DNA of 53,014 nucleotides from an uncultured Bacteroidota bacterium (GTDB lineage Bacteria; Bacteroidota; Bacteroidia; Flavobacteriales; Flavobacteriaceae), in contig CABXGL010000010.1 of the NCBI GenBank assembly GCA_902511755.1, positions 1 to 53,014 on the forward strand, read 5' to 3'. A program made the translations under genes and the position numbers. Below, piece by piece: positions 8,020 to 26,726 of the stretch (position 1 is the first letter of the stretch; the number at the start of each line of letters is the position of its first letter). Under the pieces are notes generated by a model, which was not told the origin of the DNA, searched no databases, and saw only the letters and a program-made list of their open reading frames with translations.

Positions 8020-8704
8020 TAGAGAATCTTTTATTAATGGAAAATTACTTTTAATAAACAAGCCTATTAATTGGACGTCTTTTCAAGTAGTAAATAAAAT
8101 TAGATGGCTTATAAAATCAAATTATAAAATAAAAAAAATTAAAGTTGGACATGCAGGAACACTAGATCCCCTTGCACAAGGTTTATTAATTGTGTGTACT
8201 GGAAAATTAACAAAAAAAATAGTTGAATATCAAAATAAAAAAAAATCTTATTCTGGAACTTTTTTTATAGGAGCAACTACTCCATCTTTTGACCTAGAAA
8301 CTGAAATTGATTCAACTTATTCAATAAAAAATATTGATAAAAAAAAATTGATTCAAACATCAAAAAAGTTCTTAGGAACATCTAAACAATCCCCTCCCCT
8401 TTTTTCAGCAATTAAATTAAAAGGGAAAAAACTTTATGATTATGCTAGAAAAGGAGAGAATGTAAAATTAGAAAAAAGAGAAATAAATATTTACAAATTT
8501 GAAATCACAAATACTAATCTTCCATTAGTTGATTTTGTAATTGAATGTAGTAAAGGAACTTATATAAGGTCTATTGCAAATGATTTTGGAAAAGAGTTAA
8601 AATCAGGAGCCTATCTTCAAAATTTAGTTAGAAATTCTATAGGAAATTATAATTTAAAAGATGCATTAAGCATAAATGATTTTGAAAAAATGATAATTAA
8701 TTAA
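8009..8704 (+). CDS. truB: tRNA pseudouridine(55) synthase TruB
   Basis: 231 residues. The catalytic loop VGHAGTLDPLAQG holds the nucleophile Asp at residue 53. The N-terminal segment LLLINKPINWTSF and the later SALK-like segment FSAIKLKGKKLYDYAR are also TruB hallmarks. CSKGTYIRSIANDFG in the C-terminal half is the conserved RNA-binding and active-site Arg region. The enzyme makes pseudouridine 55 in the T-loop of tRNAs. The protein is shorter than E. coli TruB because the C-terminal PUA-like part is missing, as is usual in flavobacteria. It overlaps uppP by 11 bases and the convergent aat gene by 4. Confidence 0.95.
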   Translation: MDFSRESFINGKLLLINKPINWTSFQVVNKIRWLIKSNYKIKKIKVGHAGTLDPLAQGLLIVCTGKLTKKIVEYQNKKKSYSGTFFIGATTPSFDLETEIDSTYSIKNIDKKKLIQTSKKFLGTSKQSPPLFSAIKLKGKKLYDYARKGENVKLEKREINIYKFEITNTNLPLVDFVIECSKGTYIRSIANDFGKELKSGAYLQNLVRNSIGNYNLKDALSINDFEKMIIN

Positions 8705-9333
8705 ACTAGATATTTAACAAATTCTTCTCTGGAAATTTCTTCAGCTCCAAGACTTTTTAGATGAGCACTCGGCACTTGACAATCAATCAAATCATATCCA
8801 TTTTTAGTTAATTCTTTAACTAAATAAATAAAAGCTATTTTACTTGCATTATTTTTTTTAGTAAACATACTTTCACCACAAAATATATTTCCTAAGTCTA
8901 TTCCATAAAGTCCTCCTACTAATTCCATATTTTCCCATACTTCAACTGAATAGGCATGTCCTTTTTCATGTAGTTTTTTATAAGCTTCCATTAGACCTTT
9001 TGTAATCCAGGTTCCATTCTGTCCAAACCTTTTGACTTTAGCACAAGCATTAACTACTTCCATAAAAGATTTATTAAATGTTATTTCAAATGGATTATCT
9101 TTTAAAATTTTCCTGGTTGATTTAGAGATTTTTAATTTTTCAGGAAACAATACCATTCTAGGATCTGGACTCCACCAAAGCAAATAATCATCATTTTCAA
9201 ACCAAGGGAAAATTCCCTTTTTATAAGCAAGTAATATTCTGTCTGGATCTAAATCTCCACCAAAAGCAACTATCCCTTCTTGATCTGCAGATAATGGAGA
9301 GGGAAATATATGTTCACTGGTAAGCTGATACAT
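8701..9333 (-). CDS. aat: Leucyl/phenylalanyl-tRNA--protein transferase
   Basis: 210 residues, the normal length. The family motifs GIFPWF, WWSPDPR and LVGGLYGIDLGNIFCGESMF are all present, as is CQVPSAHLKSLGAEEISR near the C-terminus. The enzyme transfers Leu or Phe from charged tRNA to N-terminal Lys or Arg of proteins, marking them for ClpS/ClpAP degradation in the N-end rule pathway. The gene lies 5 bases downstream of the DUF3127 gene on the same strand and is probably read with it. Its last bases overlap truB. Confidence 0.96.
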   Translation of the reverse strand: MYQLTSEHIFPSPLSADQEGIVAFGGDLDPDRILLAYKKGIFPWFENDDYLLWWSPDPRMVLFPEKLKISKSTRKILKDNPFEITFNKSFMEVVNACAKVKRFGQNGTWITKGLMEAYKKLHEKGHAYSVEVWENMELVGGLYGIDLGNIFCGESMFTKKNNASKIAFIYLVKELTKNGYDLIDCQVPSAHLKSLGAEEISREEFVKYLV

Positions 9334-9338
9334 TTTTA

Positions 9339-9716
9339 TTAAAAAGGTAAATCATCTGGCTCATCTTGATTAAGTTCATCGGCTGCTTGAAATGCTTCAG
9401 CAGGTGGGACAGGGGGAATTTCCGAATTTTCATCTTCAGAAAATAATTTTTCAATTCTCCAACCCTGAATAGAATTAAAATATTTGATTTCTCCTTGTGG
9501 ACTCTCCCATTCTCTTCCTCTTAAATTTATATCTATTTTAACACTTTGTCCTACTTGAAAAGAATTTAATATATCGCATTTATCTTGAACAAACTCAACC
9601 AATAAATCTTGAGGGTATTGTTCTTCTGTAGTTATTACAACTTCACGTTTCCTAAAGCCATTATTTCCATATTCTTTAGTTTCATTAATTAATTTTATTT
9701 TTCCTGAGATATCCAT
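9339..9716 (-). CDS. DUF3127-family protein with SSB-like layout and C-terminal tip
   Basis: 125 residues, of the DUF3127 family, which has no assigned function that I know of. Residues 3-91 look like one compact beta-rich domain. They are followed by an acidic, Pro/Ala-rich tail of about 30 residues ending in DEPDDLPF. That tip is the same as the last five residues (DDLPF) of the SSB protein encoded at 25188-25613. The segment around VGQSVKIDINLRGREWESPQG (residues 55-75) also lines up with GDKIYVEGKIKTRKWQSEDG of SSB: both keep the Gly, R-x-W, Ser and Gly positions at the same spacing. I infer an OB fold related to SSB that can recruit SSB partners. It is followed after 5 bases by aat. Confidence 0.8.
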   Translation of the reverse strand: MDISGKIKLINETKEYGNNGFRKREVVITTEEQYPQDLLVEFVQDKCDILNSFQVGQSVKIDINLRGREWESPQGEIKYFNSIQGWRIEKLFSEDENSEIPPVPPAEAFQAADELNQDEPDDLPF

Positions 9717-11932: not shown

Positions 11933-12364
11933 ATGGATAAAAAAAGAAGGTTTTACTTTTTAATATCATTTATTATTATAACATCTTGTTCAAAAGAACA
12001 AATAAATAATAATCCTTATTTACAAAATATTTCTTTTGAGAAAACAATCAATCTAAATCTTCCACAATATGATAACTTAAGATATAGCGGAGGTTCAGTT
12101 TATATACAAAGTGGTGGAATAAAAGGAATTTTATTATTTAATATGAATGACCAATTTATGGCATGGGAAGCAAGTTGTCCTAACCATTATCCATCTGACT
12201 GCTCAACAATGGTCCTAAGTGGAGTTCAATCTAATTGTAAATGTGAAGATTATAAATATAGTTTAGCTACAGGGCAACTTTTATCCTCTGGCAATGAAAA
12301 TAACTATCCTATGCTATCGTATTTTGCTCAAAAAAACGGCAATTCAATTCGAATATCAAACTGA
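11933..12364 (+). CDS. Rieske-like lipoprotein lacking the usual histidine ligands
   Basis: 143 residues. The N-terminus is a lipoprotein signal, FLISFIIITSC with the lipidated Cys at residue 19, so the protein should sit in the periplasm on a membrane. The remainder resembles the Rieske fold family of flavobacterial lipoproteins. The first cluster loop reads CPNHYPSDC (Cys82, Cys90) and the second CKCEDYKYSLATGQ (Cys102, Cys104). A classical Rieske site is C-x-H then C-x-x-H; here both histidines are replaced and two extra cysteines appear. Whether an iron-sulfur cluster is bound, possibly through four Cys, cannot be told. The gene faces the metal-type TonB receptor with only 16 bases between their stops. 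Confidence 0.75.
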   Translation: MDKKRRFYFLISFIIITSCSKEQINNNPYLQNISFEKTINLNLPQYDNLRYSGGSVYIQSGGIKGILLFNMNDQFMAWEASCPNHYPSDCSTMVLSGVQSNCKCEDYKYSLATGQLLSSGNENNYPMLSYFAQKNGNSIRISN

Positions 12365-23313: not shown

Positions 23314-23856
23314 TTATTTCCATTCAAATGTTTCAATGATTTTCTTAATATCATTTTTTACATATGAAATCGAAGGCAGTAAAGAATCGTAGTGTGGTTT
23401 AGAGTTAAAATATAGGGATCCGGTTAAAAAATTTGAGATTGAATCTGTCACATAAAACTGAATGTTTGATGGTGCATCTCCGATAAAAGAATAATAAAGC
23501 GCAAATACATTTTGATCTATATTATTAAACTCACTAGTATTAATACTTGAAACTAAAGAAGAATTATCTGAAATCTTTTGATTAAAATCATATCTAATCA
23601 ATTCTAAATTATTCTTTATTTTAATATTTGAAATAAAAATATCTGCTTTTAAGAAATCATAATTAATTTTCGCGTTACAATTAGAATCAAAACTTATTTT
23701 TGAATCAGAATTTATTGCAAACGAATAGCCACATTTTTTTGAAATCATTTCATAATTAGGTAAAGAAAATTGATGAGCTAAATACGCTTTCTGTTTTGGC
23801 AAATGAAACTCTTCACACCCAATTAATATAAACATGATTATCAATAGTCTAAACAT
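23314..23856 (-). CDS. gldD: Gliding-motility lipoprotein GldD
   Basis: 180 residues. A lipoprotein signal (FRLLIIMFILIGC, Cys14) is followed by PKQKAYLAHQFSLPNY, which matches the PKP+AYLRL-type start of GldD, and by the conserved CGYSF region. GldD is essential for gliding and for type IX secretion-linked adhesin handling in Flavobacterium johnsoniae, though its precise task is unclear. It directly follows gldE without a gap, with ssb and mutY before that: the same order as in F. johnsoniae. Its presence does not by itself prove motility, because non-gliding relatives keep it. Confidence 0.88.
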   Translation of the reverse strand: MFRLLIIMFILIGCEEFHLPKQKAYLAHQFSLPNYEMISKKCGYSFAINSDSKISFDSNCNAKINYDFLKADIFISNIKIKNNLELIRYDFNQKISDNSSLVSSINTSEFNNIDQNVFALYYSFIGDAPSNIQFYVTDSISNFLTGSLYFNSKPHYDSLLPSISYVKNDIKKIIETFEWK

Positions 23857-25167
23857 TTATTTTTTAAGAGTAATTTTAATTTTTTTGATTCTTTTTCTAT
23901 CGATATCCTCAATTTTGAATTTTATATTATTTACTTTTAAAACAGATCCTTTCTTTGGAAAATAACCAAACTGTTCTAGAATAAAACCTGCCATAGTTTC
24001 AGATTCTCCTTTTTTATTTTCAAAAATTGTTTCATCCTTAATTTTTATAACTCTGTAAAAATCTTTTAAATTAGTTTTTCCTTCAAAAATATAATTATTG
24101 GAATCTATTTTATAATACGATAAATCTTCTTGATAGAATTTATCTTTTAATTCTCCTACTATCTCCTCGACAATATCCTCCATTGTTATTATGCCAGAAT
24201 TTCCTCCATACTCATCAACTACAATTGCAAAATGAATTTTTAATTGTTGAAATTCACTAAGCAAATCATCTAATTTTTTGTTTTCAGGTACAAAATATGG
24301 TTCTCTAATTAATTGATTCCAATTATAATCCTTTTCATCTAAAAAAGGGAATAAGTCTTTTAAATAAATAACCCCTACTATCTTATCTATCTTTTCTTCA
24401 AAAACAGGAATCCTAGAGTACCCCTCTTCTCTTACTTGTTTAATAAGTTCATCAAAAGTTAAATCCTTAGAAACAGAAAAAACATCTATTCTAGGCTTCA
24501 TGACTTGTTTTGTTTCTATACTTCCAAAGGAAACAATTCCCTTTAAAATTTTTTGTTCATCTTTTGATGTTTCACTTTTATCAGTAAGCTCTAAAGCATC
24601 AGATAATTTATCAACCGATAAGTTGGTTGATTTAAAAACTAATTTTTTTTGAATAAATTCTGTCATCATACTCATTGGAATCGTTAAAAAAAAGAAAATA
24701 TATTTATCCAATATTTGTATTGGTAATGCCATCTTCTTTGAAAAAGAAATAGGATTCCTATTTGCGTATACTTTTGGTAATATTTCTCCAAATAATAAAA
24801 TAAATAGGGTTATTATTCCAACTTCAAGTATAAAGTTTGCCCAAAAAGGGATAGAAGAGAAATACATAGCATCTCCAAAAGAAGAGAAAAGTAATACTAT
24901 TGCAATATTTATAAAGTTATTTGAAACTAATAAAGCAGCCAATAACCTTTTAGGGTTATTCCTTAAATTATAGACAAGTTTTAGGCTCTTATTTTTAGAA
25001 TTGTTTGCTTTTTTAATATCAGTACTAGAAAGTGAAAAAAAGGCTACTTCTGACCCTGAAATCAAAGCAGAAAAAATTAAAAGTAAAATTATTAAGATTA
25101 TTTTAAGGGCTAATGTATATGAATCTATAAAAAACAGTATAGTAATTAGATTTATTTGAGTCTCCAA
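23857..25167 (-). CDS. gldE: Gliding-motility protein GldE (CNNM/CBS-domain membrane protein)
   Basis: 436 residues. The N-terminal half is a CNNM (DUF21) domain with membrane helices at about 18-40, 78-98, 105-125 and 140-160, including [19 protein letters not shown]. Two CBS motifs follow around [12 protein letters not shown] and [27 protein letters not shown], then a CorC_HlyC C-terminal domain. Such proteins act in magnesium or cobalt handling elsewhere; in F. johnsoniae GldE supports gliding together with GldD. The start appears to be TTG at 25167. The gene begins 20 bases after the ssb stop and touches gldD. Confidence 0.9.
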
Positions 25168-25187
25168 TATTATATTAAAAAATTGAT

Positions 25188-25613
25188 TTAGAATGGTAAA
25201 TCATCGGCCTCATTACTTTCGTTTGAAGATTGATCTTGTTGAATATTTTCCTGATTATTATCAGTATTTAAATCATTTTTAGTGTTCAAAAAATTAAACT
25301 CTGAAACATGAATTTCAGTAGAGTATCTTTGAGTTCCATCTTCAGATTGCCACTTTCTAGTTTTTATTTTTCCTTCAACATAAATTTTATCTCCTTTTTT
25401 TAAATATTTTTCACATATCTCAGCTGCCTTATTTTTTACAACCAAATTATGCCATTCTGTATTTGAAATTTTTTCTCCTGTAGCTTTATTTGTATAATTT
25501 TCGTTTGTAGCAATTGGAAACCTACCTATACATCCTCCTCCATCAAAATGATGCATTTTGACATTATCACCTAGATTACCTATTAACATTACTTTGTTTA
25601 AAGACCCGCTCAT
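25188..25613 (-). CDS. ssb: Single-stranded DNA-binding protein SSB
   Basis: 141 residues from the ATG at 25611-25613. This start is preferred to a TTG 39 bases earlier because it gives the usual SSB beginning, SGSLNKVMLIGNLG. The OB fold contains FPIATNE, TEWHNLVV and GDKIYVEGKIKTRKWQ, all typical. A flexible Asn/Gln/Asp linker ends in the acidic tip ADDLPF, the docking site for replication and repair partners. It coats single-stranded DNA in replication and repair. The gene lies between mutY and gldE. The DUF3127 protein at 9339-9716 ends in the same five residues. Confidence 0.97.
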   Translation of the reverse strand: MSGSLNKVMLIGNLGDNVKMHHFDGGGCIGRFPIATNENYTNKATGEKISNTEWHNLVVKNKAAEICEKYLKKGDKIYVEGKIKTRKWQSEDGTQRYSTEIHVSEFNFLNTKNDLNTDNNQENIQQDQSSNESNEADDLPF

Positions 25614-25655
25614 TTCATTGATTTTATTAGGATCAAATATACGAAAAAGCAAATA

Positions 25656-26726
25656 TTACCAATTATAGTTCAAAAGGAAATTAGAAATTGGTTTTGGAAA
25701 TGGAAACATCTTTAAATTTCTAATATTGGTTTGATTATTTTTGATGTTTTTAACATCGAAAATCCAAAATGAGTAATTGATATTTTGATGAGAAAGTTTA
25801 TGTATAAAACTTTTATTTTGATATAAATAAAATTCATTTTTTTTCGAATTAAAAAATTTGTTTTCTTTTAATTTAATTGATAAGTTTTTTTTATCCAATG
25901 ATTTTTCTGATTCAATTAGAGGAAATTGATATAAATTTTGCCAAATATCTTTATTAATTCTTTTTTCAATTACAGTATCTCCATTTGGAGATTTCATGAT
26001 TAAAAAGTTAAAAAATCTTTCTTTATTTTTTTTCTTGCCAATCTTTACAGGCAAAGCTGAGATTTTTTGATTTAAATATGCATAACAAGTCTTTTGATAA
26101 ATACACTTTTTACATATTGGGTTTTTTGGTTTACAAACCAATGATCCAAACTCCATTATAGCTTGATTAAAATCAGAAGGATTTTTTTTTGATATCAATA
26201 TTTGTGCAATATTTCTAAACTCTTTAAAAGATTTGCTAGTGTTAATTGGAATTTTAATTCCAATCAATCGAGATAAAAACCTATAAACATTTCCATCTAC
26301 AACAGGATTAATTTCATTTATTGAAAAGGAGCTTATAGCACTGGCAGTATAATCTCCAATTCCTGGTAATTTAATAAGGTCTTCATATTTAGAGGGAAAA
26401 ATACCTTCAAAATTTCCAACAACAATTTTAGCTGTTTTATGTAGATTTCTAGCTCTACTATAATACCCCAAACCTTCCCATAATTTCAAGACTTCTTTCT
26501 CTGAAGCAAAAGCTAATGTTTGAACATTTGGATATTTTTTAATAAAACGATTATAGTAAGGGAGGCCTTGAACAATTTTAGTTTGTTGTAAAATGATTTC
26601 AGATAACCAAATTTTATAAGGGTCATTTGTGTTTCTCCATGGCAATTCTCTTTTATTTATACTATACCAACTAATCAAATTATTAGAAAAACTGTTTAAA
26701 AAACTTAGTGACAAATTGAAAATCAA
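25656..26726 (-). CDS. mutY: A/G-specific adenine glycosylase MutY
   Basis: 356 residues. The helix-hairpin-helix glycosylase domain contains WLSEIILQQTKI with the catalytic Glu, LPGIGDYTASAI (the hairpin), and NPVVDGNVYRFLSR with the catalytic Asp. The iron-sulfur cluster ligands are four Cys spaced 6, 2 and 5 apart (CKPKNPICKKCIYQKTC). A C-terminal NUDIX-like domain, which reads 8-oxoguanine, fills the last 130 residues. The enzyme removes adenine opposite 8-oxoguanine. The start is uncertain: TTG at 26726 is the longest reading, and another TTG 12 bases later is equally possible. ssb follows on the same strand. Confidence 0.95.
   Translation of the reverse strand: MIFNLSLSFLNSFSNNLISWYSINKRELPWRNTNDPYKIWLSEIILQQTKIVQGLPYYNRFIKKYPNVQTLAFASEKEVLKLWEGLGYYSRARNLHKTAKIVVGNFEGIFPSKYEDLIKLPGIGDYTASAISSFSINEINPVVDGNVYRFLSRLIGIKIPINTSKSFKEFRNIAQILISKKNPSDFNQAIMEFGSLVCKPKNPICKKCIYQKTCYAYLNQKISALPVKIGKKKNKERFFNFLIMKSPNGDTVIEKRINKDIWQNLYQFPLIESEKSLDKKNLSIKLKENKFFNSKKNEFYLYQNKSFIHKLSHQNINYSFWIFDVKNIKNNQTNIRNLKMFPFPKPISNFLLNYNW

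Follow-up and report, generated by a model that had tools for sequence, protein, structure and literature searches.

What would a small protein of the DUF3127 family do with the C-terminus of a single-stranded DNA binding protein (SSB)? The question is raised by a gene on the minus strand at 9339..9716 of the window, the whole 53,014-nucleotide stretch analysed, which comes from an uncultured member of the Flavobacteriaceae. The gene was assigned by profile matches as a DUF3127 (PF11325) coding sequence, encoding a second SSB-type protein of 125 residues plus stop. The plus strand at these positions is rich in stops and the coding strand is the minus strand. The product matches PF11325 over residues 3-89 with an E-value of 2e-29 and 102.1 bits, above the curated cut-off of 27 bits. 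It also matches the phage family PHROG 4932, annotated as 'single strand DNA binding protein', over its full length (residues 1-125 on 1-117 of 117, E 8e-45). A further match is to PHROG 44, which bears the same name. No other DUF3127 gene was found in the genome of the window (1.41 Mb in 57 contigs, estimated 68% complete).

The gene ends five bases before aat (8701..9333, minus strand), which encodes leucyl/phenylalanyl-tRNA-protein transferase (PF03588, E 1e-74), and the two are probably co-transcribed. With the window's aat as query, aat was found downstream on the same strand at 79 of 80 Flavobacteria loci, at all four further loci of a family designated f2, which is discussed below, and at 19 of 70 loci of a phylum-wide sample, in which many flanks extend just 1.5 kb, so that distant pairs may be missed. 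The operon was considered as a clue to the function of DUF3127 and set aside; the pairing is seen only in the order to which the window belongs. Elsewhere in the window, an open reading frame at 11933-12364 encodes a lipoprotein-like product of 143 residues without a Pfam match, with a C-x2-H and C-x-C spacing that, we presume, resembles a Rieske site.

The window also encodes a canonical SSB (25188..25613, minus strand; PF00436, E 6e-30), the sole TIGR00621 match in the same 1.41-Mb genome, estimated 68% complete. Its coordinates assume a start at the ATG at 25613; begun at a TTG further upstream, the protein would have 154 residues. The flanks (23314-26726) hold a gene for a MutY-like glycosylase on one side and genes for a CBS/CorC protein and then GldD on the other, and the same order is found in genome G134. 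That this SSB and the DUF3127 product share a tip was the starting point of the original prediction, and both do end in DDLPF, the DUF3127 product as NQDEPDDLPF. At the DNA level, the pattern [DE]D-[hydrophobic]-P-F-stop has two matches in the genome (again 1.41 Mb, estimated 68% complete), the DUF3127 gene and the SSB tip with its stop codon (25188..25205, minus strand), the only match outside DUF3127. The same pattern run backwards gave no match in that genome.

An aligned internal segment had also been proposed. The coordinates hold, residues 56-75 of DUF3127 (GQSVKIDINLRGREWESPQG) aligning without gaps to residues 74-93 of SSB (GDKIYVEGKIKTRKWQSEDG) with 5 of 20 positions identical, but some of the motif spacings were off by one and should read G-x4-I-x4-R-x-R-E-W-E-S-x2-G for DUF3127 and G-x2-I-x6-K-x-R-K-W-Q-S-x2-G for SSB. 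The two proteins find one another in a pairwise BLASTP at E 1e-4, tail included. When the tails were removed and profiles of the cores were compared with hhalign, the score was 44.7 (E 7e-8); the highest score among 50 column shuffles was 19.0, and a reversed profile reached 11.7. The DUF3127 product has no PF00436 match at E-values up to 1 and matches none of the NCBIfam SSB models, and DUF3127 is therefore a separate family by profile. The low pairwise identity and the lack of a PF00436 match could be read as an unrelated small barrel having come to end in DDLPF by chance. The tail-free core score, far above that of any shuffle, and the identity of the listed fold matches, all SSBs, speak against convergence of the tail alone, which we consider extremely unlikely.

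By sequence alone, the best match among solved structures was an SSB at a non-significant E-value of 0.17. A structure was predicted with AlphaFold2 from an alignment of 74 sequences, comprising the window and related loci. The model has a mean pLDDT of 82.7, with core blocks at 85-95 and a low-confidence tail. Its layout is that of an OB fold, with five strands of which the third and fourth are joined through a helix (strand segments 2-10, 14-16, 21-30, 37-43, 58-71 and 77-90; helix 44-52). A fold search of the PDB gave 124 matches at E-values up to 0.001, and the 50 listed were all bacterial SSBs, with E-values from 1.1e-6 to 2.6e-5; the TM-score of the best was 0.58 for the query and 0.72 for the target. 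The 50 matches listed from a viral structure library were DUF3127 proteins, phage SSBs, one 'uncharacterized protein' and unnamed entries. In the predicted model, DUF3127 thus has an SSB-type OB fold, and the view of it as an OB-fold relative of SSB is supported; it may also bind single-stranded nucleic acid and compete for SSB partners, as the original prediction proposed.

The protein can accordingly be divided into three parts, all on the minus strand: a predicted OB-fold core (residues 1-90, 9447..9716), from the model and its SSB structure matches; a variable proline-rich linker, predicted to be disordered (residues 91-117, 9366..9446), with unconserved columns and blocks of pLDDT 50-66 after residue 90; and an acidic docking tip resembling the SSB C-terminus, DEPDDLPF (residues 118-125, 9342..9365), identified by its conservation across the family.

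An OB fold is also compatible with an RNA-binding protein of the cold-shock type, whose acidic tail would serve RNA metabolism, and the NCBIfam models CspD (E 0.0055) and CspE (E 0.038) do match the product weakly. These matches are far below the cut-offs, CspD scoring 16.6 bits where 115.4 are required. The 50 listed PDB matches are SSBs, the DUF3127 tip has the make-up of an SSB C-terminus, and recombination exonucleases, annealing proteins and helicase loaders are among the neighbours of the phage genes, all of which make an RNA-binding role very unlikely.

We then consider how far the tip extends through the family. A Pro-Phe end is present in 172 of the 175 chromosomal members read, drawn from two sets that may overlap in species. 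All members of a Flavobacteria set, the best 80 of at least 583 loci by similarity, end in DDLPF. In the phylum sample, 92 of 95 members, in 24 of 25 families, end in Pro-Phe; these 95 come from 93 of the 171 genomes with a match, and the 78 unread genomes include some of the lowest-scoring members. A match cut by a contig end (G257) and a gene in two pieces (G077) were left out of the 95. Conservation of the tip, as expected from the original prediction, therefore holds for nearly all members, but the tip is lost in family f12 and altered in f17. The three f12 proteins read (L460, L463, L464) end in NVDDE, DVDDD and EEDEA; the f12 SSB retains DDLPF although the DUF3127 tip is lost. All seven DUF3127 proteins read from f17 (L176, L182, L186, L187, L230, L447, L448) have Ala, Met, Cys or Arg before Pro-Phe. 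The f17 SSBs read end in DDLPF despite these unusual DUF3127 tips. A member from f32 ends in SIPPF.

In an alignment of 43 diverse members, drawn without any from f12, no column of the whole protein is invariant apart from P124 and F125. Among 25 representatives at 60% identity, likewise drawn without f12, the two terminal residues do not vary, acidic residues make up 60-88% at positions -4 to -8, and the preceding linker is unconserved. Viral members follow the same pattern: 72 of 77 closed reading frames of close relatives (not dereplicated; one with a wrong start and a true end) and 51 of 54 unique divergent ones end in Pro-Phe or Pro-Trp, and several of the remaining five and three are wholly tailless. 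Phage DUF3127 proteins that end with the OB core or a little beyond it, and have no tip, were seen at L038, L040, L074, L079, L080, L334 and L335. On the strength of the aligned termini, the C-terminus of DUF3127 has the make-up of an SSB docking tip. For E. coli SSB, the account in PMC10164576 gives removal of the last Phe, or of the last eight residues, as lethal.

The bases of single-stranded DNA stack in E. coli SSB on W40, W54, F60 and W88, as set out in the relevant part of PMC3991886. With the window's SSB assumed to share E. coli residue numbers, the core profile alignment pairs W70 of DUF3127 with W88, Y34 with Y40 and residue 43 with position 60, while W54 falls in an 11-residue gap and has no counterpart. 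In the 43 diverse members an aromatic residue is found at Y34 in 43, at W70 in 42, at F80 in 43 and at W86 in 43; at position 43 itself it is found in 21, and at 42 or 43 taken together in 29. From the alignment, Y34, W70 and position 42/43 are likely to be the positions at which DUF3127 would contact single-stranded DNA.

The same alignment bears on whether DUF3127 might be a decoy or regulator, a protein that no longer coats DNA and whose DDLPF tip occupies SSB partners or hands them over. One of the four stacking positions has no counterpart in DUF3127, another is aromatic in just 29 of 43 members even with two neighbouring columns counted, and conservation is higher in the tip than in the core. 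Against this, 42 or 43 of the 43 members retain aromatics at Y34, W70, F80 and W86, and the tipless, core-only phage copies are unexplained by a pure decoy. A decoy is, we judge, unlikely, and we prefer a DUF3127 that would still bind single-stranded DNA.

Such a protein would work alongside SSB in most of the genomes that encode it. Of the 296 genomes in the phylum sample, 171 have DUF3127, with a single match in 167 of these; in the window's class it was found in 72 of 73 genomes among the matches listed. An SSB was found beside it in 41 of 41 DUF3127 genomes in one set and 20 of 22 in another. Two genomes with DUF3127 (G220 and G024) have no SSB match at E-values up to 1; this is taken as an assembly gap, because other genomes of their genera have SSB. 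The 42nd genome of the first set (G292) has SSB and lacks DUF3127. In the one-contig genome G059 (L406 and L500), the only SSB match ends in GGSHTE and DUF3127 ends in LEDLPF. In the window's own family, genomes G134, G029 and G053 (L414-L416) have a second SSB of 110-112 residues without a tip; the window's genome shows one SSB.

The tips of the two proteins were also compared pair by pair. Where the residue at -3 of the SSB is Ile or Val, DUF3127 has Ile or Val as well in 13 of 13 genomes, as against 4 of 37 with other SSB residues (Fisher p 7e-9). Nine of 59 pairs had been dropped, eight because one partner lacks Pro-Phe (G269, G099, G059, G095, G281, G001, G006, G016) and that of G196 because the SSB read ends in LLY. 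All 13 genomes come from three families (f22, f24, f27) and the agreement is thus possibly one of shared descent; as a pattern in the sequences, this co-variation is suggestive only.

A different arrangement is found in f2, a family of the window's order that we take to be perhaps the Weeksellaceae. A PF00436 match was obtained in 54 of 60 sampled f2 genomes; the other six have none at E-values up to 0.001, and five of these six are at least 93% complete. All SSBs from the 25 genomes with a single match were read, and 22 of them end without Pro-Phe. About 17 of these 22, judged by eye, stop at the end of the OB domain (in LLLGGK and similar sequences). The other three keep a Pro-Phe end, one of them degenerate. 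In the 29 genomes with two or more SSB matches, of which the copies were partly read, a tip-bearing copy is present in at least 10. For 43 tipless f2 SSB genes, all forward frames were searched from -60 to +300 bases of the gene end, and none held remnants of a tip.

DUF3127 of f2, by comparison, ends in DDLPF with further acidic residues in 6 of 6 genomes read, which include two (G012 and G281) of the 22 whose sole SSB is tipless. In four genomes (G012, G210, G265 and G281) the sole SSB match, at E-values up to 1, is tipless and DUF3127 is tipped; there, therefore, DUF3127 keeps the tip and the main SSB is without one. In the two others, G095 and G277, a tip is present on a second, divergent SSB. 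Judging from these termini, DUF3127 probably carries the docking role in f2, where it would be the main recruiting platform beside a mostly tipless sole SSB. We suggest more tentatively, as a possibility somewhat short of an even chance, that the docking tip has moved from SSB to DUF3127, leaving SSB just to coat DNA with DUF3127 as the recruiting hub; where SSB is undetected, DUF3127, if present, may even be the sole SSB.

In phages, the identity of DUF3127 as a single-stranded DNA binding protein is already partly known from database annotation. RefSeq phage records and PHROG 4932 name it as single strand DNA binding, and most of the GenBank originals listed call it a hypothetical protein. 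SSB and DUF3127 domains are described together in one phage gene product in a section of PMC8004638. The gene comes after those for an Erf annealing protein and an exonuclease in Nonlabens phage P12024L, and lies about 1.4 kb downstream of RecT in Cellulophaga phage phi18:3. At 81 representative viral loci (of 148), 120 of the 297 genes within two genes of DUF3127 were compared with 120 of the 267 genes further off. The commonest PHROG families among the near genes, in a tally of the top 25 families in which one gene may match several, were exonucleases (7, 6 and 5), replication initiation proteins (5 and 4), DnaD-like loaders (4, 3 and 3) and a structural family (4); in Pfam terms, YqaJ was found five times and ERF twice. 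The far genes were led by methyltransferases, primase/helicases and endonucleases; two members of a repair exonuclease family and a single Sak annealing protein also occur among them. The contrast is modest, because the far genes too are largely DNA-metabolism genes. The neighbourhood of phage DUF3127 genes leans towards recombination and replication, a context in which the protein may serve as the phage's own SSB.

A canonical SSB over the cut-off was found in none of 46 DUF3127-bearing phage records, made up of the 42 behind the 148 viral loci and four phage records, with two phages probably counted twice; there was one weak match (E 5e-6). Among 45 control records anchored on RecT, DUF3127 alone occurs in four, SSB alone in four, both in none and neither in 37; of the four with DUF3127 alone, one is the phage from which the RecT query was taken and the others have an almost identical RecT. 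Because SSB is rare in RecT-anchored phages too, its absence from DUF3127 phages says little, and mutual exclusion of the two proteins was discarded as strong evidence. Viral relatives of the window's SSB were found at 18 loci.

Taken together, we favour, with a probability of about 0.78, the reading that DUF3127 is an auxiliary chromosomal SSB-type protein that works beside SSB and recruits SSB partners, and that in f2 is probably the main docking carrier. Its SSB-like OB core would bind single-stranded DNA, and the variable disordered linker would lead to the acidic tip, which is the part directly visible in the sequences. The tip would dock the same repair and replication enzymes as that of SSB, of the RecO, PriA or ExoI type, so that DUF3127 may serve as a second recruiting platform next to the canonical protein.

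With canonical SSB (PF00436/TIGR00621) DUF3127 shares the predicted SSB-type OB fold, the Trp at the W88 position in the R-x-W block, and a disordered linker with an acidic Pro-Phe tip. It differs in having no PF00436 match, no W54 segment, a shorter core of about 90 residues and a separate gene. A second SSB beside the main one is familiar from SsbB of the Firmicutes, which is a member of the SSB family and is not known to have the tip; DUF3127, in contrast, is a distinct profile family and keeps the tip. The phage proteins of PHROG 4932 belong to the same family as the 9339-9716 product, and their name is an annotation; chromosomal members, the family-wide tip and the situation in f2 are absent from that entry. 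An open-licence PubMed Central search, mostly by title, found neither a second tip-bearing SSB in the Bacteroidota nor a wholesale loss of the SSB tip, and in the open-licence PubMed Central literature DUF3127 occurs in a single paper and PF11325 in none. The phage identity is already given in databases, while the class-wide conservation of the tip and the f2 pattern were not found described in the literature searched.

The finding proposes a function for a domain that is listed in Pfam as one of unknown function. SSB is usually regarded, together with its tip, as a single hub. As a natural experiment, family f2, where DNA coating and partner recruitment may sit on two proteins, makes their separation directly testable. 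If the proposed role is true, the SSB interaction maps of E. coli and Bacillus would miss a near-universal player in the class to which the window belongs.
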